This document shows positions 2,799 through 20,111 of a stretch of 38,366 bases of DNA, in pieces. The translations under genes were made by a program, and so were the position numbers. Below the pieces are notes generated by a model. It saw only the letters and a list, made by a program, of their open reading frames with translations, was not told where the DNA came from and did no database searches. The number at the start of each line of letters is the position of its first letter. The first letter of the stretch is position 1. Origin of the DNA: Candidatus Kryptoniota bacterium (GTDB lineage Bacteria > Bacteroidota > Ignavibacteria > Kryptoniales > JAKASW01); the NCBI GenBank assembly GCA_036567965.1, contig DATCTN010000022.1, positions 1 to 38,366 of the forward strand, read 5' to 3'.

Positions 2799-3273
2799 GA
2801 TTTTCCAGTTTCCTTTTCTTCTTCCACCGCTCGTGACTGCGGATTGTTGGATATTCCTGACTGAGACATTACATTCTTCTCGAAGGGCATATGGATCAAT
2901 GGCAGAACGTCAGGGCTCGGCTAAATCAAGCTTCTACCATCAGCAACCAGTACAGGGCAATCAAAAACCTCCATCCTACACCCGCTGGCGATTTCATTCA
3001 ATCCGGCATTAGACGCCCTTCGTCGGTACAACAGTATAACTGAAATATCCAGTCTTCATTCGGTAATGCCAGATTCGGAATGGAGAGACACCCTCAGCTT
3101 TAATTGTCTCATCTCCGATCTCTCCTGAATAATTTTATCCAGGCATCTCTCTTCATTTCATGATTCAGACGACACTTGCAGAGGTCGTCGTGGATCCGGA
3201 TGAAGGGCTCGAAGCAGCAGACGATGGCTGCCTATACAGTCCTGCAAACTTTCATCACATTGCTGGAGGATAT
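2799..3273. other. Gene-free spacer before the beta-propeller gene
   Basis: Nothing coding is supported in these 475 bases. An open frame spanning 2572-3012 runs through the SPFH 3' end and the hairpin repeat and is not protein-like. The in-frame extension of the next gene back to 3160 lacks a signal peptide at its start and a ribosome-binding site, so it is treated as untranslated. Confidence 0.5.
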
Positions 3274-5421
3274 ATGAAAACCAAACTACTGTTTCTCATC
3301 ATGACCGTCTCCGTCATATTCAATGTGGAGCTCTCGAATGCTCAGTGGAATTGGGTATGGCGTAATCCGCAGCCGACAGGGAACGCCATCTTCGATGTGT
3401 GGCCGTTTTCGACGACCGAATATCTGGCCGTAGGAGGCGGCGGGCTGATTATGCGGTCGACAGACGCAGGATTGACCTGGACGACCATCGGGTCAGGTGT
3501 ACCTAACTATCTTTACGCCGTATATTTCGCGGATGCGAACAACGGCTGGATCTGCGGGCAAGATGGTGTGGTTCTCCGTACCACCGACCACGGCGCAACC
3601 TGGGGAGTTACTCAAACAGGCGCGGGCTCTCTCTGGGATATTTGCTTTTGGGGGACAAGCACAGGCTGGGCTTGCGGGGATAACGGAATGATAATCAAAA
3701 CTACCGATGGTGGAACTTCATGGGATTCGAAGAACAGTGGAACCACAGAGTGGTTGACCAGCATCTGCTTCACAAGCGCCACCGAGGGATATATTGCAGG
3801 CGCCGGAGGAACAATTCTGAAGACAGTTAACGGCGGATCCATCTGGGGCTCCAAGACCACAAATACAACAAACGATCTCCACACGATCTTTGAAGTTGGA
3901 TCGGTGATGTATTCATTCGGACTCAGCGGCACTGTAATAAAGAGTAACGATGGAGGAAGCACCTGGCCGTCGGCGAGCAGCGGACTTTTAGGAGACATTA
4001 GGTACGCCTGCGCCGTTGATGCAAACAACATGTGGGTAGTAGGTCAGGGAAACGTGGTCAGCAAGACCACTGATGGCGGCGCAACATGGAACAGCAAAAA
4101 TCCTTGGATAGGAGGAAACCCCGATAACGGACCGACTATCACCGGCGATTTCTATTGTGCCTATTTTTCATCTTCGACTACCGGCATAGTGTGCGGCAGC
4201 AACGGAGTTATTTACCGAACGACCGACGACGGAGCCACGTGGACATCGCGATCGATCTCTTTCACAGGGAAAGACGCAGTCGATATAACCTTTTCCGATT
4301 CGCAGCGCGGATTCTTTCTCGTGAACCCGAACGACGCGACATCGAACTCGTTGTTCCGCACCACCGATGGAGGCGCGTCATGGTCCGAAGTGTCAAACAC
4401 TAACCCGGTCAACTTTGTCAGGATATTCAGCGGCGGCAGCGGCATACGTTATGCCGGAGACACAAGAGGTCTCGAGACCACCACCGACTACGGAGCAACA
4501 TGGGCGTCGAACGGAGGCAGCGCGCCCGCAGGAAGTTCATACCCGAAGTTCGAATTCGCAAACACTTCGGTCGGCTGGTCGGGATCATTCACCTCGCCGT
4601 TCAGCTACAAAACTACAGATGGAGGAAAAAACTGGACGACCGTTACCCGCCCGTACGTCGATGTTATCGGCGGTTACTCTGTTCCCGACGCGAATACGAT
4701 CTGGATAGCGGAATGGTCCGACGGAGTGAACATAATTTTGAGCACCGATGGTGGAGCTACATGGGCCAATCCGGCAGGGAGCGTCAGCGGGAACCGAACA
4801 TGCGTCTTTGCTTTCGATGCGAGCAAGGCATGGGTCGGCAGCTCGAACGGAAAGATCTATAAAACGACAAACGGCGCCGGCTCATTCACAGAAGTAGACC
4901 CGATGATGGGCGGGAACGCGGTATCAGACGTCAAGTTTCTAACAGCGGATACAGGCTTCGTTGTCGGGGCAGCCGGAAACTTCAGCGTCACGTATGACGG
5001 CGGCGCGTCGTGGACTCCGGGAAATAATGGTACGGACTGGACGAAGATCGGAGTTGCAAGCCACAGAGATATTCTCTTCGTCGGCAAGCTAGGCACGGTT
5101 CTTCAGGGGATGTACGGGCCCGCAACAGGAGTATCCATTTCTGGAAAAACCAATCCTGAGGCGTTTGCGCTAAGTCAGAATTTTCCCAACCCATTTAATC
5201 CTTCGACGGCAATATCATTTGACATTCCATCGAAGAGTTTCGTGACATTGAAAATATTCGACCTCCTCGGAAGAGAAGTGGCAACAATAGTCTCGGAAGA
5301 GATGACTCCCGGACATTATCAGAGGATGTGGGATGCTTCCCGAATGCCGAGTGGAATTTATTTTTGCAGATTACAATCCGGTTCGTTCACGGAAACAAGA
5401 AAACTTGTAGTGCTTAAGTAA
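3274..5421 (+). CDS. Secreted Asp-box (BNR/Ycf48-like) beta-propeller protein with T9SS sorting domain
   Basis: A 715-residue protein starting MKTKLLFLIMTVS, a Sec signal peptide ending near SNAQ. The ATG at 3274 has GGAGGA just upstream (3265-3270). The body is a run of about eleven Asp-box repeats (pattern S/T-x-D-x-G-x-T/S-W: STDAGLTW, TTDHGATW, TTDGGTSW, SNDGGSTW, TTDDGATW and others) spaced 40-60 residues apart, as in BNR/sialidase-like and Ycf48-like propellers. The last 80 residues are the type IX sorting domain: NFPNPFNPSTAISFDIP, FDLLGREVATIV, MPSGIYFCRLQSG and a terminal KLVVLK. The product is therefore exported, crosses the outer membrane through the T9SS, and is attached or released at the surface. 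The ligand is unknown. No catalytic residues of true sialidases were identified. Confidence 0.88.
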   Translation: MKTKLLFLIMTVSVIFNVELSNAQWNWVWRNPQPTGNAIFDVWPFSTTEYLAVGGGGLIMRSTDAGLTWTTIGSGVPNYLYAVYFADANNGWICGQDGVVLRTTDHGATWGVTQTGAGSLWDICFWGTSTGWACGDNGMIIKTTDGGTSWDSKNSGTTEWLTSICFTSATEGYIAGAGGTILKTVNGGSIWGSKTTNTTNDLHTIFEVGSVMYSFGLSGTVIKSNDGGSTWPSASSGLLGDIRYACAVDANNMWVVGQGNVVSKTTDGGATWNSKNPWIGGNPDNGPTITGDFYCAYFSSSTTGIVCGSNGVIYRTTDDGATWTSRSISFTGKDAVDITFSDSQRGFFLVNPNDATSNSLFRTTDGGASWSEVSNTNPVNFVRIFSGGSGIRYAGDTRGLETTTDYGATWASNGGSAPAGSSYPKFEFANTSVGWSGSFTSPFSYKTTDGGKNWTTVTRPYVDVIGGYSVPDANTIWIAEWSDGVNIILSTDGGATWANPAGSVSGNRTCVFAFDASKAWVGSSNGKIYKTTNGAGSFTEVDPMMGGNAVSDVKFLTADTGFVVGAAGNFSVTYDGGASWTPGNNGTDWTKIGVASHRDILFVGKLGTVLQGMYGPATGVSISGKTNPEAFALSQNFPNPFNPSTAISFDIPSKSFVTLKIFDLLGREVATIVSEEMTPGHYQRMWDASRMPSGIYFCRLQSGSFTETRKLVVLK

Positions 5422-6388: not shown

Positions 6389-6485
6389 CGTTATCAATAT
6401 CTATATGCACTCTTCTTCCACACGCTTGCAATTCCAGCGTGATTGTCTGATTTTTGAAGCGACCAAGAATAATAAAGAGGATGCC

Positions 6486-9400
6486 ATGCCTCACTCTGAC
6501 TGGTTCAAGTTCACGTTGCCTGCCGCCGCAGTGATTATGTTTACGTTGTTCTCACCGTTATCCCGGGCATGCGCTCAGACTCTGCCGCAATCGGAGAGAG
6601 TCTTTACGATCAATGCGACGGATCGCATCGCGCCTCCGGAAACAGGTTACCTCGAGATGGGAAGCAGCGATGCCGGTAACTCGCCTGACGGCAGCACGCT
6701 GTCCGTAAACAGCCGCTACCTTGTGCTTGACGGCAAGCCCTGGCTTCCGGTGATGGGTGAATTCCATTACAGCCGTTTTCCTGAACGATATTGGGAAGAA
6801 GAGCTTCTGAAAATGAAGGCGGGCGGCGTCCAGATTGTTTCCACATATGTTTTTTGGATCCACCACGAAGAAGTCGAAGGACAATTTGACTGGTCGGGCC
6901 GGCGTGATCTTCGAAAGTTTGTGGAGCTCTGCTCAAAGTTAGGACTTTATGTTTACCCAAGAATCGGTCCGTGGGCGCATGGCGAAGTGAGAAATGGAGG
7001 GTTTCCAGATTGGCTCATTGCAAAGGGTCCGATACGCGTAAACGACTCGACCTTTCTCTCTTACGTGAAAATATTTTACAAGGAAATCGGAAATCAGCTG
7101 AAAGGTTTGCTCTGGAAAGATGGAGGTCCGGTAATCGGAATCCAGATCGAGAATGAGTACGCGAACCGCGCCCCAAACGGGGGCGATGCGTACCTGTTGA
7201 AACTGAAGAGCATGGCTATTGAAGCCGGCCTTGATGTACCACTATATACCGTTACAGGCTGGGACAACGCTGTAATTCCTCCTCATGCATTTATTCCGGT
7301 GTACGGCGGTTATCCCGACGAGCCGTGGTCCGGAGCCAGAGGGGAAATGCGGCCTGATCCGCAGGGCGTCTTCCAATTTCATGTCGCAACACCCATCGGG
7401 ACTGCCGGAATCATGCAGGGTGTACCGTCCGGAGCCGAAGAAGTGCAGTATTCACATTATCCGAGATTCACCGCTGAGATAGGTGGAGGGATGGAAGATA
7501 CGTATCATCGGCGGGTGGTGGTCTCGCCTGACGACATAGCTGCGATGTCACTCAGTGCGCTCGGATCAGGCGTGAACCTATTAGGCTACTACATGTACCA
7601 TGGCGGCGCGAACCCGCAGGGAAAACTGACGGCACTTCAGGAATCGCAATCGACCGGCTATCCGAATGACGTGCCTGTAATATCTTACGATTTCCAGGCG
7701 CCGCTCGGCGAGTTCGGGCAGATGAACGGCACCTTCCGCAGGCTCAAAGCTCTTCACCAGTTCATTCACGACTTCGGAACGGAACTTGCCCCGATGGCGG
7801 GAGTTATGCCTGACGTTGTTCCATCCGGTCCGCGCGACACGACCACTTTGCGGATCGCCGCCCGCACATTCGGCGGCAGGGGATTCTTGTTCTTCAACAA
7901 CTACCTCCGGAGTTACCCGCTCCCTGAACAGAAAGGGGTGAAGGTCCGTCTTGAACTACCTGGAGAAACAATTTCAGTTCCTGACGCGCCGGTCGATATC
8001 CCGTCGCAATCCTTTTTCTTCTGGCCCGTCAATCTCGACTTGGGTGGAGCGCTTTTGAAATATGCGACCGCCCAACCTTTCGCAAAGTTCTCCGACGATA
8101 ATGACTCGTACTATTTCTTCATGGCATCTCCGTTTCGTAAAGCAGAATTTGTCTTCGCTGAATCGAATGTAAGTTCATTGCATTCGCCTGCGGGCTCAGT
8201 CCTCCGTAAGGATTCGCTCATGCATGTCGATGGGGTTGGTCCGTCGACAGCAGATGCGATTACGATCAAGACTTCTTCCGGACATATTGTCCATGTTGTC
8301 CTCCTTTCTCAGGAAGAAGCATACGATTCGTGGGAGCTGCGGCTCGATGGTCGTAAACATCTGCTCATCACATCTGCGGAGGTCTTCGCATGCGGCGACA
8401 CGATCCACCTGCGATCGCGTGATCCCAACGCCTTCTCCGTATTGGTTTTCCCCAAGATCAGCAATACGCTTGCCTCAAATTTTCCTCTCATCGAGAAGAG
8501 GGATGTAGGCATATTCAGCCACTTTATCGCGTCGATCAAGCAGGCGAAAAATCCGGCGGGACTCAAACAAATCCGCAAGGCAGGAAATGTTCCGCCAGTG
8601 AAAATGGGAAGAGCGTTCGATTGGCGTAATGGCGCGGTGGCAGCTTCACCGGACGATTCGACGTTCGAACAGGCCGCTGTATGGAGAGTGACATTGCCAA
8701 AAGTCATGCCTCCGGGTATCAGCGATCTGTTTCTGAAAATCAGGTACACTGGAGATGTGGGTAGACTCTACTCGGGAGACCTGATGCTTGATGACAATTT
8801 CTTTAACGGCACAACATGGGAAATCGGATTGAAACGGTTCGGTCCTGACGTATTCGCACATGGACTCGATCTAAAAATACTCCCTCTTCGGAAGGATGCG
8901 CCGATATATATTCCGGAGAATATGTGGCCATCATTCGATGGAGCGGCCCAGGTTGCCGGCGTGAAATCTGTCACGGCTTCACCGGAATATGAAGTGACAC
9001 TCGCTCCGGAGAATAAGAAGATCGGGCAGGCGGGCAAGTTTGTCCTGGGCGCAGACATTTCTTTCCTCGACGCACCGGGCTTCGGGAGATACGCGAAGTT
9101 GCCGGCTTACCAGGAGAATGGAAAACCGGGCGACGAATTGACGATCTTGTCCAACCATGGTTGGAACGCGTTTCGTCTTCGCGTCTTTGTGTCACCTGTG
9201 AGAAAAGCGCCCGACAATTCGCTTGCGAATACTATCCCGCTTGCGAGACGAATAAAAGCTTCCGGTGCGCTGTTGCTCCTGGATTTTCATTTCTCCGACA
9301 CGTGGGCCGATCCACAACACCAGGAAATTCCTGTCGCATGGCAGGGACTCAGTTTCGATTCGCTTGTTGATCGAGTGGAATCGTATGCAAAGGATGTCAT

Positions 9401-10082
9401 CACCCGGCTGAAGAATGCCGGCGCGATGCCCGATTGGGTGCAAGTCGGGAACGAGATTACCAGGGGAACGTTGTGGCCGGTGGCGCAAGTCCAGATTCCT
9501 GGATCCACTCAATACAACCCACCTGAACCGTACGACGCTTCAAAGCAGTGGGATCACCTGACTCGAATTCTTAAGGCAGGAATACGAGGAGTGATGTCTG
9601 CGGCGGGCAACACGCCGCCCCGTATCGCGATTCATATCGATCAGGGAGGAAATTGGCCTGTGACAAAATGGTTCTTCGATCATTTGGAAGCAGCTCACGT
9701 TGACTACGACATAATTTCAGAGAGCTTTTACCCTCCGTGGCACCATGGTACACTTGAAGGCCTGCGATCCAACATGGTCAATTGTGCGAATCGATATAAT
9801 AAAGACTTCGCTGTGGTCGAAACCGGTTACGACAGTTCGAGGGTTCAAAATAATGAAGACATGTTGTGGCCAATTAATTCGGAAGGACGGCTGCAATTCA
9901 TGGTGGATCTGGTTAATACAGTGAGGAAATCGCCTCGTGGAGTTGGAGTTATGTACTGGGCACCGGAAAGAGACGCGTGGAACAAAGATGGGACTCCTGG
10001 CCCCGTCGTATTCGTTCTCGATTCACTGGCATCGCTCGCAAAACCTCCTTTTAGCCATGCGCCACTTTCCATCGAGAAGTAA
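6486..10082 (+). CDS. GH35 beta-galactosidase / GH53 endo-beta-1,4-galactanase fusion
   Basis: A 1198-residue secreted enzyme. The ATG at 6486 follows AGAGG (6476-6480) and opens a Sec signal peptide ending near RACAQ. The N-terminal half (about 60-500) is a GH35 domain: GEFHYSRFP, WEEELLKMKAGGVQIVSTYVFW, IQIENEY with predicted acid/base E224, and FTAEIGGGMED with predicted nucleophile E331, then YYMYHGGAN. A region of beta domains (about 500-850) follows. The C-terminal half (about 855-1190) is a GH53 domain: GADISFLD, WVQVGNEIT (predicted acid/base E990), SESFYPPWHHG and AVVETGYDS (predicted nucleophile E1112). GH53 cuts beta-1,4-galactan internally and GH35 removes terminal galactose, so one chain could take galactan side chains of rhamnogalacturonan I to galactose. 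Both halves keep their catalytic residues. It heads the pectin cluster. Confidence 0.9.
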   Translation: MPHSDWFKFTLPAAAVIMFTLFSPLSRACAQTLPQSERVFTINATDRIAPPETGYLEMGSSDAGNSPDGSTLSVNSRYLVLDGKPWLPVMGEFHYSRFPERYWEEELLKMKAGGVQIVSTYVFWIHHEEVEGQFDWSGRRDLRKFVELCSKLGLYVYPRIGPWAHGEVRNGGFPDWLIAKGPIRVNDSTFLSYVKIFYKEIGNQLKGLLWKDGGPVIGIQIENEYANRAPNGGDAYLLKLKSMAIEAGLDVPLYTVTGWDNAVIPPHAFIPVYGGYPDEPWSGARGEMRPDPQGVFQFHVATPIGTAGIMQGVPSGAEEVQYSHYPRFTAEIGGGMEDTYHRRVVVSPDDIAAMSLSALGSGVNLLGYYMYHGGANPQGKLTALQESQSTGYPNDVPVISYDFQAPLGEFGQMNGTFRRLKALHQFIHDFGTELAPMAGVMPDVVPSGPRDTTTLRIAARTFGGRGFLFFNNYLRSYPLPEQKGVKVRLELPGETISVPDAPVDIPSQSFFFWPVNLDLGGALLKYATAQPFAKFSDDNDSYYFFMASPFRKAEFVFAESNVSSLHSPAGSVLRKDSLMHVDGVGPSTADAITIKTSSGHIVHVVLLSQEEAYDSWELRLDGRKHLLITSAEVFACGDTIHLRSRDPNAFSVLVFPKISNTLASNFPLIEKRDVGIFSHFIASIKQAKNPAGLKQIRKAGNVPPVKMGRAFDWRNGAVAASPDDSTFEQAAVWRVTLPKVMPPGISDLFLKIRYTGDVGRLYSGDLMLDDNFFNGTTWEIGLKRFGPDVFAHGLDLKILPLRKDAPIYIPENMWPSFDGAAQVAGVKSVTASPEYEVTLAPENKKIGQAGKFVLGADISFLDAPGFGRYAKLPAYQENGKPGDELTILSNHGWNAFRLRVFVSPVRKAPDNSLANTIPLARRIKASGALLLLDFHFSDTWADPQHQEIPVAWQGLSFDSLVDRVESYAKDVITRLKNAGAMPDWVQVGNEITRGTLWPVAQVQIPGSTQYNPPEPYDASKQWDHLTRILKAGIRGVMSAAGNTPPRIAIHIDQGGNWPVTKWFFDHLEAAHVDYDIISESFYPPWHHGTLEGLRSNMVNCANRYNKDFAVVETGYDSSRVQNNEDMLWPINSEGRLQFMVDLVNTVRKSPRGVGVMYWAPERDAWNKDGTPGPVVFVLDSLASLAKPPFSHAPLSIEK

Positions 10083-10570: not shown

Positions 10571-11767
10571 TTGAGAAATCTGATTTTTGATTGCGCAGTC
10601 TGGGTACTATTGATTATAATTCCTTCAAGAATGTCTTTCTCCCAGCAGACAAAAGTCCCCGACGGCAATCCTCGGGGCATGTACGATGAATCCCGGGTCC
10701 CGCGGTACAACCTTCCTGATCCGCTTATTCTCTCTAATGGTGAGGGTGTCCACGATACAATTGCATGGATTGAGAAACGCAGACCCGAGTTGTTGAACCT
10801 GTTCGAGACATATGTCTACGGGAAACCTGCAGTTGGAAGGCCGGAACATTTTCATTGGATTGTGAATCCGGATAGCGAGGTAACCGATTCATCCATCACG
10901 AAGAGAGTCACTCTTTATTTCTCTGAGAATGATCTCTGGCCGAAACTCGATGTTGAAATCGTTCTTCCGAGGACCGGGAAACCTGTTCCTGTTTTCGTCG
11001 TTTCCACATGGTATCCGGACGCGCCGCTCCTTCTCAGTAGAGGCTATGGACTGGTGAGATATGACGCGCGCGAAATTGAACCTGACGATAAAGACAGCGC
11101 TTACACAAAGGGCATCAGGAAGTTCTTCGATCCTCCTGATCGCAAACAAGCGACCGCGGATGAGTGGGGAACTATTGCCGCATGGTCGTGGGTCGCGAGC
11201 AGAGTAATGGATTATCTGGTAACGGACAAGAATATTGATTCAAATAAGATTTGCATCCTGGGATTTTCCAGGTTCGGCAAAGCAGCGATGTGGGCAGGCG
11301 CGCTCGACACGCGATTCGCGATTGTCTTTTCGTGCGAGTCAGGCTGCGGCGGTGCAACGATCGTCCGTCGTGGTTTTGGTGAAACCGTCCGGCTGATTAA
11401 CGAGCAGTTTCCCCACTGGTTCAACGGCAACTTCAAGAAATTCAATGATCGTGTGAGCGATTTGCCCGTCGACTGGCATATGCTGATTGCCCTTATGGCA
11501 CCGAGACCTGTTTATCTCTCCACGGCTGAAGACGATTGGTGGGGCGATCCGCGCGGAACGTTTCTCGCGGCAAAAGCCGCCGAGTCTGTTTTTGCACTCT
11601 TCGGAGAAAAGGGAATGAACGTGTCAGAAATGCCGCCGCCCGAGAGCCAGGTCGGGAGTTTCATCGGATATCATATGAGAAAAGGTAGACATGGTTTGAC
11701 GTCGTACGACATGGATCTGTTCATGAGATTTGCCGATTCTCATTTTGAATCCAATGCTTCGAAGTGA
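10571..11767 (+). CDS. CE15-like glucuronoyl esterase (alpha/beta hydrolase)
   Basis: A 398-residue secreted esterase. The TTG start gives a hydrophobic signal (MRNLIFDCAVWVLLIIIPSR, then SFSQQ). The only nearby ATG falls inside that signal, and the frame is closed by a TAA at 10553. AAGGGGA lies 10 bases upstream. The catalytic-serine motif is ILGFSRFGKAAMWAG (S233), followed by SCESGCGGA (E256, the likely acid), PHWFNGNFKKFND, the region AEDDWWGDPRG, and RKGRHGLTSYDM (H374, the likely catalytic His). This series matches bacterial CE15 4-O-methyl-glucuronoyl methylesterases, which break ester links between glucuronate and alcohols. Related pectin methylesterases (CE19) and acetylxylan esterases are alternatives. 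With its neighbours it would deesterify uronic acids in plant polysaccharide. Confidence 0.82.
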   Translation: MRNLIFDCAVWVLLIIIPSRMSFSQQTKVPDGNPRGMYDESRVPRYNLPDPLILSNGEGVHDTIAWIEKRRPELLNLFETYVYGKPAVGRPEHFHWIVNPDSEVTDSSITKRVTLYFSENDLWPKLDVEIVLPRTGKPVPVFVVSTWYPDAPLLLSRGYGLVRYDAREIEPDDKDSAYTKGIRKFFDPPDRKQATADEWGTIAAWSWVASRVMDYLVTDKNIDSNKICILGFSRFGKAAMWAGALDTRFAIVFSCESGCGGATIVRRGFGETVRLINEQFPHWFNGNFKKFNDRVSDLPVDWHMLIALMAPRPVYLSTAEDDWWGDPRGTFLAAKAAESVFALFGEKGMNVSEMPPPESQVGSFIGYHMRKGRHGLTSYDMDLFMRFADSHFESNASK

Positions 11768-11815
11768 TCGTCTGCTGCATCTTTCAAATGTGTAATTCAT
11801 TTTCATGGTGATGTC

Positions 11816-13210
11816 GTGAAAATCCATCATGCCACACTGATCACGTTAACAATTCTTCTCTGCGCTGAGGTCGCAGCGTACTGCGCTCTCCCTGATTTTC
11901 CTCTGAGGTTGAGTGCGAATGGGCGATACCTTGTCGACCAAAACGACAAACCATTTCTGATTAAGGAAATCTCAGCGTGGGGATTGATACAATCATTGTC
12001 GGAAGCCGACGAGGCTGCTTTCATGGACAGCGTCGGGAGCAAGGGCTTCAACACTCTTCTTGTCAGCGTGATCTCATACGATACCAGGTTTGCCGGTAAG
12101 CCGCCTGACTGGAACGGGATCTCGCCCTTTAAGGTCCACTGGGACTTTTCGACGTACGATACCGTGTACTTCAGTCACGTCGATCGAGTGCTGAACATGG
12201 CAGGGAAAAGAGGAATGGTTGTTCTTCTCGTGGCGTGTTACCTCGGCTGGAGCGGAGATCCTAATCAGGGTTGGTGGGACGAGTTGCGAGACAAGAACAA
12301 CAGCCCGGACAAGAGCCGGATTTACGGTCGATTCCTGGGGAATCGTTACAAGAATTTTGCCAACATTATCTGGGTCGCCGGAGGCGATAACGATGCCGAC
12401 GGTCCTTCGTACGAGCACATGAAAAACATAATCGAGGGGATAAAAGAAAACGATCATCATCTCTGGACCGCTCACTGGTCTGCAAATCACTGGTCGTTCG
12501 ACAATAAACCTTACGCGTCGTATTTGGACCTCAACGGAATGTATAACTGGACGGAACGATTCCTCGGGAGTGCAGGTCCCCAGTACAGGACAGAGCTCGA
12601 AAAGTATGGATCGGGAAAAATGATATTCCAACTTGACCAGAGTTATGAGAACGACGTTCCCGACACGATAGACAATCTCGATCACCAGTGGATCCGCAGA
12701 AAAAATTACGACGGGATTCTTTGTGGGTGCAGGGGAACGAGTTTCAGCCCGGGCGCGATTGACAACCAGTGCTACATATTCAAGAACTGGAAACCGTTGA
12801 TGAATACCCAGGGGATGTGGGAAGCGAAGTATTGTTTCAATCTTTTTGAATCACGATCGTGGCAGGACCTTATTCCTGACTCGAGTTGTGATGTTTCGGG
12901 GCGCGGAGCGTTCGGTGATATTACTTACGCGTGCGCAGCCAGGACTTCCACGGGCGGAACGATGATCGTCTATATTCCCACAGCACGCGAGATTATGGTC
13001 GATCTCGGCAGAATATCCGGTAAATCGGTCCGCGCATGGTGGTACAGTCCCGGGAGCGGGCGGGGAATTAAGATCGGTGAGTACCCAACAGCTGGCTTCC
13101 AGAAATTCAATCCTCCGGCGGCTGGAGATTGGGTACTCGTGATAGATGACGCTTCCCTAGACTTGAACGGGCCCGGAACAGCAGCTGCGGAAGGCATCCG
13201 CGGAGAATAA
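11816..13210 (+). CDS. DUF4038/GH140-like apiosidase-type glycoside hydrolase
   Basis: A 464-residue protein from a GTG start, with a signal peptide (KIHHATLITLTILLCAEVAAYCA). The TIM-barrel (about 28-375) begins LRLSANGRYLVDQNDKPFLI, the usual DUF4038 opening. It contains SAWGLIQSLSEADEAAFMD, GWWDELRDKN, and IIWVAGGDND, whose D191 matches the conserved GGD acid. The second acidic motif, normally GEPxYE, reads LDQSYE, so Asp274 appears in place of Glu. The C-terminal part (about 375-450; MIVYIPTAREIMVDLG, WWYSPGSGRGIKIGE) is the associated beta domain ('collagen-binding' type). Characterised GH140 enzymes release apiose from rhamnogalacturonan II. The family includes other activities, so the substrate is a context-based guess. 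It lies 48 bp after the esterase, in the same direction. Confidence 0.75.
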   Translation: MKIHHATLITLTILLCAEVAAYCALPDFPLRLSANGRYLVDQNDKPFLIKEISAWGLIQSLSEADEAAFMDSVGSKGFNTLLVSVISYDTRFAGKPPDWNGISPFKVHWDFSTYDTVYFSHVDRVLNMAGKRGMVVLLVACYLGWSGDPNQGWWDELRDKNNSPDKSRIYGRFLGNRYKNFANIIWVAGGDNDADGPSYEHMKNIIEGIKENDHHLWTAHWSANHWSFDNKPYASYLDLNGMYNWTERFLGSAGPQYRTELEKYGSGKMIFQLDQSYENDVPDTIDNLDHQWIRRKNYDGILCGCRGTSFSPGAIDNQCYIFKNWKPLMNTQGMWEAKYCFNLFESRSWQDLIPDSSCDVSGRGAFGDITYACAARTSTGGTMIVYIPTAREIMVDLGRISGKSVRAWWYSPGSGRGIKIGEYPTAGFQKFNPPAAGDWVLVIDDASLDLNGPGTAAAEGIRGE

Positions 13211-13326
13211 CCATTATCGGAATCCAATCAGAGCTGCCATTCTCGAAGATGATCCCTTTTCATTATGCCTGTCTTCCAGGTTTACAAAGGGTTATTTTAT
13301 GAAACACAGAATGACGAGAACAACTT

Positions 13327-13686
13327 ATGAATAAGAAAGAGATAAGACGGCAATACAAGGAAACATTGCAGCCGATGGGAATGTACCAGATAAAGAATCT
13401 TTTCGACGGCAAAATCTTCATCGGCAGCAGCAAGAACCTCCATGGAAAATTGAACGGCAGTAGGTTCCAGCTCAGACTTGGTTCACACATGAACAGAGCC
13501 CTCCAGGAACATTTCGCGAAACTCGGAGAAGAAAAGTTCTCATTTGAAATCGTCGATTTCCTTAAATCTAAAGACGAACCGCGGTACGATTACTCCGATG
13601 AGCTTGCAGTACTTGAGGATTGGTGGTTGGAGAAACTCGGACCGTACCACGATAAAGGATATAACAAAAGGGAAAAAGTCAGTTAA
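13327..13686 (+). CDS. GIY-YIG nuclease family protein
   Basis: A 119-residue protein with the core GMYQIKNLFDGKIFIGSSKNL (a variant GIY...YIG). The LGSHMNRALQEHFAKLGEEKFSFEIV helix-strand follows, then ELAVLEDWWLEKLGPYHDKGYN with the acidic residue expected late in the domain. The leading MNKKEIRRQYKETLQPMG is also typical of a small family found in many bacteria, distinct from the UPF0213-like protein at 455-745. The ribosome-binding site is weak. The gene sits between two secreted glycoside hydrolases (116 bp after one, 42 bp before the other), where a DNA nuclease has no obvious metabolic role. It looks like an insertion into the cluster. Confidence 0.82.
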   Translation: MNKKEIRRQYKETLQPMGMYQIKNLFDGKIFIGSSKNLHGKLNGSRFQLRLGSHMNRALQEHFAKLGEEKFSFEIVDFLKSKDEPRYDYSDELAVLEDWWLEKLGPYHDKGYNKREKVS

Positions 13687-13728
13687 GTGCCGCGCAAAAG
13701 TCTTCGGCAAGAAACCGAAAGGGAAGTC

Positions 13729-15747
13729 ATGAACACTCGCATCAGCAAAATTGTTCTCGTAATGTTCAGCTTATTACTGGCAATAATGTGTCTTGATAGT
13801 GGTACAATAGCGGCGTCTCCTCTTCAAGCTGACAGTGTTACCAATGGGGCTCGACTGGATTGGTGGCGCGAGGCGCGGTTTGGAATGTTTATTCACTGGG
13901 GCATTTATTCCGTCCCGGCTCAAGGCGAGTGGTACATGACCAACGCACAAGTCCCACGGTCAGAATATGAAAAGTATGCCGCGAGATTCGATCCGACCAA
14001 ATTCGATGCCGACAAATGGGCCGAGATAGCTCACGACGCAGGCATGAAATACCTCGTCATCACTTCGAAACATCACGACGGATTTTCGATGTTCAAGACG
14101 GCCGCGACGAAGTATAACGTTGTCGACGCGACACCGTGGGGAAAGGATCCTCTCAAAGCTCTAAGTGCCGCCTGCCGCAGACATGGAATCAAGTTTTGCG
14201 TGTACTATTCGATTATGGACTGGCATTCTCCTTTCCAGGGTGCCGACAAACCTGATTCGCTTCACCCGTCGTACAACCCGACGCACTTCAATCCTGGAGA
14301 GAAAGAAAAATATGTCGGGTATATGAAAATGCAGCTCAAGGAGCTCATGACACAATATCATCCCGCAGTGCTTTGGTTCGATGGGGGATGGATGAATGGA
14401 TGGACGAGCAAAGATGGAGTCGAGCTGTATCAGTACTTGAGGAAATTGGATCCGCGACTGATCATCAACAATCGTGTTATCGGCGCCGGGGACTATGAAA
14501 CCCCGGAACAGGAAATTCCGCCGAACGGTATTCCCGGACACGATTGGGAAACGTGCATGACCATCAATGACAGCTGGGGATTCAACTCGAGCGATTCGAA
14601 CTTCAAGTCAACAAGTGAATTGCTTCACAACCTCATCGATATCGCGAGCAAGGGAGGCAACTACCTGTTAAATGTCGGGCCGACTGACCTTGGAATAATT
14701 CCTTCACAGGAAGTCGAGCGACTTGAGGCAATGGGTAAGTGGCTTAAGGTGAACGGCGAGGCGATATATGGGACATCTGCCGGTCCATTCACGACTCAGC
14801 TTCCGTGGGGCCGCTGTACAGAAAAGAAAAACAATCTATACCTGACCGTATTCAATTGGCCTGCAGATGGAAAGCTGGTATTCGACGGGCTTTATTCAAA
14901 ACCGAGAACCAGCTATTTACTTTCCGACGAGCACCAGCACGCATTAAAAGTCATTCAGGCCGGAGATTCAATTGTTATTAGTGTCCCCACACAATCTCCT
15001 GATCAGGTCGCGAGTGTAGTCGTGCTAAACTTTTCCGGAAAGCCTGTCGTATTCAACCCGCCGCTTATTGAATCTGAGCACGACATCTTCATAGATACAG
15101 TCAAAGTAGTGTTGTCATCCGGCGGAGAAAACGCGGACGTTCGCTACACGATCGATGGAACTTTCCCGGTCAATTCGTCTCCTCTCGCGAACAGACCGAT
15201 ACTGCTATCATCTACGGCATTGATCACTGCCGCATGCTTTCACGGAGGGCGGCAGGTGAGCGAGGTGTCGACGAAGACATTTACGAGAGTCTCTCCGGAA
15301 CCAGCGATCGCGGTTGACTCGCTCTCGCCAGGAGTGAGCTATAAATACTTTGAAGGGAGCTGGGAGAAGCTTCCGGATTTTTCAAAGCTTGTTCCGGTAC
15401 GTGAAGGGAATATGCCCAACTTTGGGCTTCCGCCTCAGAGAGCGCTTGTCAACTATGGTGCGACTTACTCAGGCTATGTCAAGATCCCGCAGGACGGAGT
15501 CTACACTTTTTTTACGGCTTCGGACGACGGAAGCAGATTATTCATTGATAACCGGCTTGTCGTCGACAATGATCAACTGCACGGCGTGATACAAAAATCC
15601 GGCGTCGTTCCGCTTGCGGCGGGATACCATTCGATTAAAGTTGAATTCTTCCAGGCATCGGGCGGAGACGAGTTGGACGTGTACTTCAGGACTCAAGGCT
15701 TGCCGATGACCACTATTCCTGATTCACTCCTGTTCCAAAGACGGTGA
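13729..15747 (+). CDS. GH29 alpha-L-fucosidase with chitobiase-like and PA14 domains
   Basis: A 672-residue secreted enzyme. The ATG at 13729 has AAAGGG just upstream and opens a signal peptide (ISKIVLVMFSLLLAIMCLD...). This is preferred over the in-frame GTG at 13687, which would put basic residues before it. The GH29 domain (about 35-450) contains WWREARFGMFIHWGIYSVPA, ITSKHHDGFSMF, and LWFDGGWMNG with D218 as the predicted nucleophile. An Ig-like CHB_HEX_C-type domain follows (about 455-530; VRYTIDGTFPVNSSPL). The last 140 residues are a PA14 carbohydrate-binding domain (FTASDDGSRLFIDNRLVVDN...). The enzyme removes alpha-L-fucose outside the cell. Fucose occurs on xyloglucan and rhamnogalacturonan side chains, consistent with the neighbours. 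The stop codon overlaps the start of the next gene. Confidence 0.9.
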   Translation: MNTRISKIVLVMFSLLLAIMCLDSGTIAASPLQADSVTNGARLDWWREARFGMFIHWGIYSVPAQGEWYMTNAQVPRSEYEKYAARFDPTKFDADKWAEIAHDAGMKYLVITSKHHDGFSMFKTAATKYNVVDATPWGKDPLKALSAACRRHGIKFCVYYSIMDWHSPFQGADKPDSLHPSYNPTHFNPGEKEKYVGYMKMQLKELMTQYHPAVLWFDGGWMNGWTSKDGVELYQYLRKLDPRLIINNRVIGAGDYETPEQEIPPNGIPGHDWETCMTINDSWGFNSSDSNFKSTSELLHNLIDIASKGGNYLLNVGPTDLGIIPSQEVERLEAMGKWLKVNGEAIYGTSAGPFTTQLPWGRCTEKKNNLYLTVFNWPADGKLVFDGLYSKPRTSYLLSDEHQHALKVIQAGDSIVISVPTQSPDQVASVVVLNFSGKPVVFNPPLIESEHDIFIDTVKVVLSSGGENADVRYTIDGTFPVNSSPLANRPILLSSTALITAACFHGGRQVSEVSTKTFTRVSPEPAIAVDSLSPGVSYKYFEGSWEKLPDFSKLVPVREGNMPNFGLPPQRALVNYGATYSGYVKIPQDGVYTFFTASDDGSRLFIDNRLVVDNDQLHGVIQKSGVVPLAAGYHSIKVEFFQASGGDELDVYFRTQGLPMTTIPDSLLFQRR

Positions 15748-18445: not shown

Positions 18446-18725
18446 TTCTAAAACTCTCAACTCTCCAGTTGCACTGCCGTCTGATTATCTCCGATGGATT
18501 TGGCTAAGATCAGGTGTTCGGGTAAATTCGTGCGAGCCATTAGGGCAAAGTCGGGTGAGTGATCGGAACTTGACAGCTTGAATCAGATGGGGGATTCGTC
18601 AGGCGCGCAAATCAAGGATGTTTAAGCAAGACTTCACTTAAATGCCTAAGCCCAATTTCATTTCTAACCGAGGTAATTAGTGGATGACTGCATTGTTCTG
18701 TACGACAAAAGGAAGAGGTGTTGCC
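18446..18725. other. Gene-free spacer and leader of the next gene
   Basis: No gene, tRNA or clear repeat is seen. GGAAGAGG at 18711-18718 is the ribosome-binding site of the following gene. Confidence 0.4.
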
Positions 18726-20111
18726 ATGAAAAATTCTGCCACAGCATTCGTCGTTTTTCTTCTCTTAGCAGGAAATACCATTGCCCAGACTGACACGACC
18801 AAACCTTCAGGAGGATTTGCCCAACATGGCGCCGTTACCGGAATCGCACTCTTAGGATCAGGCTTTTATGAGGCTGTTTATGATAGCGGAGTGTTTCCGA
18901 TTTCCGGTCCTTCGCTTTCAGCACAGATACAGGGAAGCGATAACGTGGTAATCAGCTTCACCTCGGGTGGCAATACGTTGATTGCCGGTATTGATGCTCT
19001 AGACAGCACCGACGTGAATCACAGAGGTACAGACGGCGGGGTTTGGCAGTACAACGGATCATGGTCAAAAATTGGCATCCCTGGCAATTACAACAACTCC
19101 AACGGACTTCCATCGCACTCAGTCATTTCGGTTGCATGGGACAGTACATATGTATTCGTCGCTCTTCCTGGTAGTGACCTCAAAAGTCAGAGTCCTAGCT
19201 TTGGTGGAGTCTGGCGCGCTATCCCCGGCGGTAATTGGGATTCGTGCTACTCCGGTGCTATGACGGATTCTTCATTTGTCACATCGCTCCTTGTGAGTGG
19301 ATCAACACTCCATGCAGGGACTCTGTCTAGTGATATGCCTATAGAAGGCACAAGGGGACTAGGAAGCGGAGGGATTTTCAAGTCGACCGACCACGGTACG
19401 ACCTGGACAGACATTAGTTACGATTTACCCAATAGGGATATTCTGTGCATTGCCCAATTGGACACGATGCTCTACGTCAGTACTCTATATCATGGCGTTT
19501 TTCGTAAAGCGCATAGTGCAAAAAGTTGGACCCAGGTCGTATTTAATACTGCCACAAATCCGGTCTCATGCTTTGCAACCGATGGTTCGAATCTTTATGC
19601 GGGCACATATTGTATCGACACTCTTAACGCCGAGCATGGTGTTTATTACATCAACAACAATTCAACAAGTTGGAATGCTCTCTCAGTCCCAGGATTAAGG
19701 GATTCCACGATCATATCAGCGCTTGGAGTGTATGGCGGTCATCTTTACGTCGGTAGCGGAGGCACATTTGGAATGACTTCGAAATATTATGGAACCTTCG
19801 TTGTCTCTCTTGTTCCGGTAGCGGTGCGACCATCTAGTGAAGCCCCTCACCGGTTTATGCTGAGCCAGAATTACCCGAACCCATTTAATCCTAGCACCAT
19901 AATCAGTTACCAGTTGCCGGCAAACATCTTTGTGTCATTAAAGATCTATGATGTGCTCGGAAGGGAAGTAAAGACTTTCGTCAATGAACGTCAAAACGCA
20001 GGCACTCACAACGTAACTTTCAACGCAGGCAACCTGCCGAGCGGAGTATATTTCTATCGCTTAACAGCCGGATCATTTTCTGAAATTAAGAAATTACTGT
20101 TGGTTAAATGA
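18726..20111 (+). CDS. Secreted T9SS-sorted repeat protein
   Basis: A 461-residue protein beginning MKNSATAFVVFLLLAG, a Sec signal ending near TIAQ. GGAAGAGG stands 7 bases before the ATG, so the longer frame from 18684 is rejected. The body is propeller-like, with repeated V/I-x-G-x-x-L strands and a single clear Asp box (STDHGTTW). Other blades read LYVSTLYHGVFRK, LYAGTYCIDTL and LYVGSGG. The last 85 residues form the T9SS sorting domain: NYPNPFNPSTIISYQLP, VLGREVKTFV, LPSGVYFYRLTAGSF and a terminal KLLLVK. The product is exported to the surface by the same route as the 3274-5421 protein. The ligand is unknown. Both proteins probably belong to a large paralogous surface family. Confidence 0.85.
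   Translation: MKNSATAFVVFLLLAGNTIAQTDTTKPSGGFAQHGAVTGIALLGSGFYEAVYDSGVFPISGPSLSAQIQGSDNVVISFTSGGNTLIAGIDALDSTDVNHRGTDGGVWQYNGSWSKIGIPGNYNNSNGLPSHSVISVAWDSTYVFVALPGSDLKSQSPSFGGVWRAIPGGNWDSCYSGAMTDSSFVTSLLVSGSTLHAGTLSSDMPIEGTRGLGSGGIFKSTDHGTTWTDISYDLPNRDILCIAQLDTMLYVSTLYHGVFRKAHSAKSWTQVVFNTATNPVSCFATDGSNLYAGTYCIDTLNAEHGVYYINNNSTSWNALSVPGLRDSTIISALGVYGGHLYVGSGGTFGMTSKYYGTFVVSLVPVAVRPSSEAPHRFMLSQNYPNPFNPSTIISYQLPANIFVSLKIYDVLGREVKTFVNERQNAGTHNVTFNAGNLPSGVYFYRLTAGSFSEIKKLLLVK

Follow-up and report, generated by a model that had tools for sequence, protein, structure and literature searches.

Why would a GH35 enzyme of the beta-galactosidase type and a GH53 galactanase be built into one polypeptide chain, how did such a gene arise, and what could the joining bring to the cell? 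The gene that raises these questions lies in the window, by which we mean the whole stretch of 38,366 nucleotides analysed here, from a Candidatus Kryptoniota bacterium (Table 1). The reading that we favour, with a probability of roughly 0.68, is that it encodes a periplasmic, bifunctional saccharifier of galactan oligosaccharides which came about by the recent fusion of two neighbouring genes.

Table 1. Fused gene, its parts and the enzyme genes downstream of it (positions in the window)
Feature	Position	Strand	Evidence
Fused GH35-GH53 protein, 1198 aa	6486..10082	+	Open frame, 1198 codons and stop
Predicted signal peptide, residues 1-31, ...SRACAQ	6486..6578	+	Sequence inspection; comparable one in aligned relatives
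GH35 catalytic module, residues 79-425	6720..7760	+	PF01301; E224 at 7155-7157, E331 at 7476-7478
GH35 accessory C-terminal region, residues 426-840	7761..9005	+	Full-length matches to stand-alone relatives
Fusion junction, residues 838-848	8997..9029	+	Comparison with G004, G008 and G499
GH53 module, residues 855-1161	9048..9968	+	PF07745; E990 at 9453-9455, E1112 at 9819-9821
Glucuronyl-esterase-like gene	10571..11767	+	PF22244
Apiosidase-like gene	11816..13210	+	PF13204
Alpha-L-fucosidase gene with PA14	13687..15747	+	PF01120

Two catalytic modules in one chain

The fusion is real. The frame is open from end to end, and both Pfam matches lie far above their cut-offs (GH35, 205 bits against 27; GH53, 242 bits against 24), which confirms the claim of the initial annotation that the two families share one chain of 1198 residues. 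The list of open reading frames holds a longer ATG frame for this gene, starting at 6405. On inspection, an AAAGAGG-like ribosome site lies just upstream of the ATG at 6486, and a typical signal peptide begins there.

All four catalytic glutamates are at the positions given earlier and align with the catalytic residues of their families. In an alignment with 16 other GH35 proteins, among them the two canonical ones of the window's own genome, E224 (in QIEN-E-Y) and E331 fall on conserved glutamates. E990 and E1112 do so in comparison with 14 other GH53 domains and also with the solved fungal galactanase 1hjs. Both modules had been called apparently active; the glutamates are indeed intact in both, and the activities themselves are predictions. 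The GH53 half is a predicted endo-beta-1,4-galactanase, and the GH35 half is a predicted exo-beta-galactosidase whose specificity we infer from its neighbours. An AlphaFold2 model of the full protein, computed from the single sequence, had a mean pLDDT of 34, too low for use. In the GH53 module an insertion (AQVQIPGSTQYNPPEPYDASKQW; residues ~997-1020, window ~9474-9545) follows the acid/base residue. It is common to the GH53 proteins of the congeners, has a longer form in Gemmatirosa, is absent or shorter in most other GH53 proteins and may shape the substrate cleft.

The GH35 half belongs to a clade distinct from canonical GH35, with full-length matches at 30 to 60% identity within the clade and matches of ~25 to 30%, mostly partial, outside it; our search for a characterised member of this clade found none. 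Matches to solved GH35 enzymes fall mainly within the first half of the GH35 module. The module is matched by 3w5f, which we take to be the structure of the tomato GH35 beta-galactosidase/exo-galactanase TBG4, but this is a plant enzyme without a GH53 module and is distant in sequence. Silencing of TBG4 lowered the exo-galactanase activity on lupin galactan, according to the passage of PMC4737064 that cites this work.

The architecture had been described as GH35-linker-GH53, a description that we have to revise. Stand-alone relatives of ~800 to 850 aa align along the full length of the GH35 half (G499, a genome from another family of the same class, 851 aa and ~60% identity; the congener G004, 847 aa and ~48-49%; Paraburkholderia, 812 aa and 44%; Sphingobium, 797 aa and 39%). 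Because these relatives match over their full length, residues 426 to 840 belong to the GH35 protein as its accessory domains. There is thus no long linker, and the true join measures about 10 residues.

Rarity and origin of the fusion

The GH35-GH53 fusion is apparently rare. Within the family it was present in 1 of 13 genomes, all of one genus, and this one is the window's own. Searches found no further GH35-GH53 fusion in a class sample of 391 genomes, in a phylum sample of 395 genomes or in a plasmid collection that samples other phyla. A peptide-pattern scan of genome contigs returned three distant GH35-like loci only, and a viral scan returned no match. In the titles and abstracts listed by our searches of an open-access library, we found no description of a GH35-GH53 or GH2-GH53 fusion. 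Among the long frames of the phylum search, those scanned for domains turned out to be GH2-GH53 proteins or GH53 proteins with a T9SS tail; the four other frames, of 711 to 733 aa, could not accommodate both a complete GH35 protein of this clade and a GH53. A long frame in G249 proved to be separate genes.

In two congeners, G004 and G008, the orthologous modules are encoded by two separate, adjacent genes in the same order and on the same strand as in the fusion, GH35 followed by GH53. The GH35 half is 48% identical to its counterpart in G004 and 45% in G008, where the copy is cut by the contig end; the GH53 half is 68% and 66% identical, respectively. The GH53 proteins of both congeners have their own signal peptides, whereas the fusion has neither the GH35 stop nor the GH53 signal peptide, and we therefore regard it as a recent fusion of neighbours. 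The sequences around the join make this more precise. The GH35 protein of G499 ends in ...ASPEYELKIVYGNNIK-stop, the fusion reads ...ASPEYEVTLAPENKK-IGQAG-KFVLGADIS, and the congener GH53 proteins continue directly after their signal peptides (...THAQEP-KFVLGADIS and ...TLAQGS-KFVLGADIS). The tail of GH35 has therefore been set straight on the start of mature GH53. On the simplest reading, the fusion would have arisen when the GH35 stop was deleted together with the spacer and the signal peptide of GH53.

As the join is read from the assembly, an assembly or sequencing error could be thought to have brought the two genes together. However, the whole intergenic stretch and the signal peptide are absent while the frame is kept, which a point error would not achieve, and genome completeness is 100%, with contamination at 0.39%. 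We find such an error scarcely credible.

In the GH53 tree, the fusion half is sister to the congener GH53 proteins with a support of 100. In the GH35 tree, the fusion half groups with G499, and the congeners join this pair with weaker support (83/92). The closeness to G499, and the fact that the separate pair is shown by two congeners only, would fit with the opposite history, in which the fusion is ancestral and was split in G004 and G008. That history is very improbable, as GH35 genes are separate in G499, Sphingobium and others, the congener GH53 proteins carry complete signal peptides, and such a peptide is harder to gain than to lose. We thus keep to a recent fusion. The patchy spread suggests transfer between lineages.

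GH35, GH2 and GH53 as partners

Teamwork between GH35 and GH53 is itself ordinary, and what appears to be rare is the joining in one chain. In Sphingobium RAC03, the clade GH35 and GH53 genes overlap by four bases and are followed by a GH43, and the pair sits in a rhamnogalacturonan locus with a rhamnogalacturonan acetylesterase. In G129 the two genes are separated by eight bases within a SusC/SusD locus, in G020 they adjoin and are convergent, in G015 they adjoin by coordinates, and in G499 one small gene lies between them. The G499 GH53 gene (L115:11819-13472) is interrupted close to an undetermined base, which probably reflects a flaw of the assembly. A GH53 gene lies within 3 kb of the clade GH35 in three of six Bacteroidota lineages, compared to 0.016 expected (P, ~3e-7), a value from a simple random-placement model that is rough because enzyme genes cluster in general. 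Against this, clade GH35 genes without a nearby GH53 are found in Paraburkholderia, G249, G213, G033 and G293. As clade GH35 genes stand repeatedly beside GH53, in Sphingobium and in three other Bacteroidota lineages, the partnership is old, and since the GH53 partners come from different branches of the GH53 tree, the pairing arose more than once.

Endo- and exo-acting enzymes for one polymer had been said to be normally separate. This is true for the separate genes of the congeners, but GH2-GH53 proteins occur in the same phylum. Three Bacteroidota proteins of 1119 to 1157 aa (L076:3463-6822, L077:4408-7848 and L079:3399-6872) are GH2-GH53 by Pfam, and a protein of 1151 aa in G401 (L078:2914-6369) is GH2-GH53-like by its length and GH53 sequence. 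Like the fusion, the three have an N-terminal module of the beta-galactosidase type and a C-terminal GH53, but their exo module is GH2 instead of GH35, and the tree indicates separate origins. In the GH53 tree the GH2-GH53 proteins branch at two points, and both GH53 glutamates are retained in them. The galactan locus BT4667-BT4673 of Bacteroides thetaiotaomicron encodes a GH2 and an extracellular GH53 (BT4668) that work on pectic galactan (PMC5238430); compared to the fusion, these are separate genes, with GH2 and not GH35, and with the GH53 outside the cell.

Location and possible role

The initial annotation called the protein secreted. Its apparent Sec signal peptide indicates export, but Pfam found no match to a C-terminal T9SS sorting domain (Por_Secre_tail) in the fusion, although window neighbours do match. 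The organism does use T9SS, and its other GH53 has a T9SS tail; the gene for it lies on contig C25, with a TonB receptor and a galactokinase close by. With a signal peptide and without this tail, the fusion is therefore probably periplasmic, where it would finish imported galactan oligosaccharides. T9SS-tailed proteins are encoded in the window at 3160-5421 and 18684-20111, one of them with BNR/sortilin-like repeats.

Against the favoured reading stands the position of the fusion gene, which lies outside the C25 galactan locus and has esterase, apiosidase-like and fucosidase genes as neighbours. The same-strand genes from 10571 to 15747 may form a complex-pectin cluster with it. Between these enzyme genes, a small open reading frame at 13327-13686 has a sub-threshold match to a GIY-YIG nuclease. 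Promoter and terminator scans gave results at or below chance. In G004, the GH35/GH53 pair shares one locus with a TonB receptor, a T9SS GH53, two GH2 genes and a galactokinase, and in G499, too, a galactokinase lies near the GH35/GH53 genes. The proposal that both halves serve the same polymer is supported by this context, as the Sphingobium locus and the galactokinase, TonB and GH2 neighbours point to galactan use.

Alternatively, the target of the GH35 half could be a different beta-galactoside, such as a rhamnogalacturonan or arabinogalactan side branch or a beta-1,2, beta-1,3 or beta-1,6 link, whose hydrolysis would give access to GH53 or a further enzyme. The distinctness of the clade from canonical GH35 and the complex pectin suggested by the window neighbours would agree with this, and a paper dealing with GH35 (PMC11739564) reports a beta-1,2-galactosidase of Bacteroides xylanisolvens. 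Set against the repeated pairing with GH53, a beta-1,4-galactan family, and the galactokinase genes close by, this possibility deserves some weight but is on balance rather unlikely.

For the galactan saccharifier that we prefer, family functions and sorting tags suggest the following scheme. The surface GH53 would cut galactan, the TonB receptor would import the fragments and the fusion would finish them in the periplasm. There, its GH53 half would cut internal beta-1,4-galactosyl bonds of the imported fragments and its GH35 half would take galactose off their non-reducing ends. Each site probably works as an independent module. The gains from fusion would be one signal peptide, equal amounts of both enzymes and closeness. 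We infer the periplasmic location, the substrate and any benefit of closeness in the fusion.

Closeness may be under selection, since fusions of exo- and endo-acting enzymes also exist as GH2-GH53. This, like the short join of ~10 residues, speaks for the earlier idea that the fusion lets the GH53 site hand galactan fragments straight to the GH35 site. However, in the congeners the two enzymes function as unlinked proteins, and two exposed barrels in one chain make no channel by themselves, which makes direct handing quite improbable. Whether fusion of an exo-galactosidase with GH53 was selected several times (GH35-GH53 once and GH2-GH53 at two tree positions), with closeness speeding the complete periplasmic breakdown of galactan and with some direct passing of products, is a broader proposal that we consider unlikely.

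Together, the fusion and the repeated pairing provide a lead to the function of a GH35 clade for which no characterised member was found. Moreover, the same two enzymes are separate in the congeners and are joined in one chain here. This is a natural before-and-after pair and opens the way to a clean test of what the tethering of exo- and endo-acting enzymes brings.
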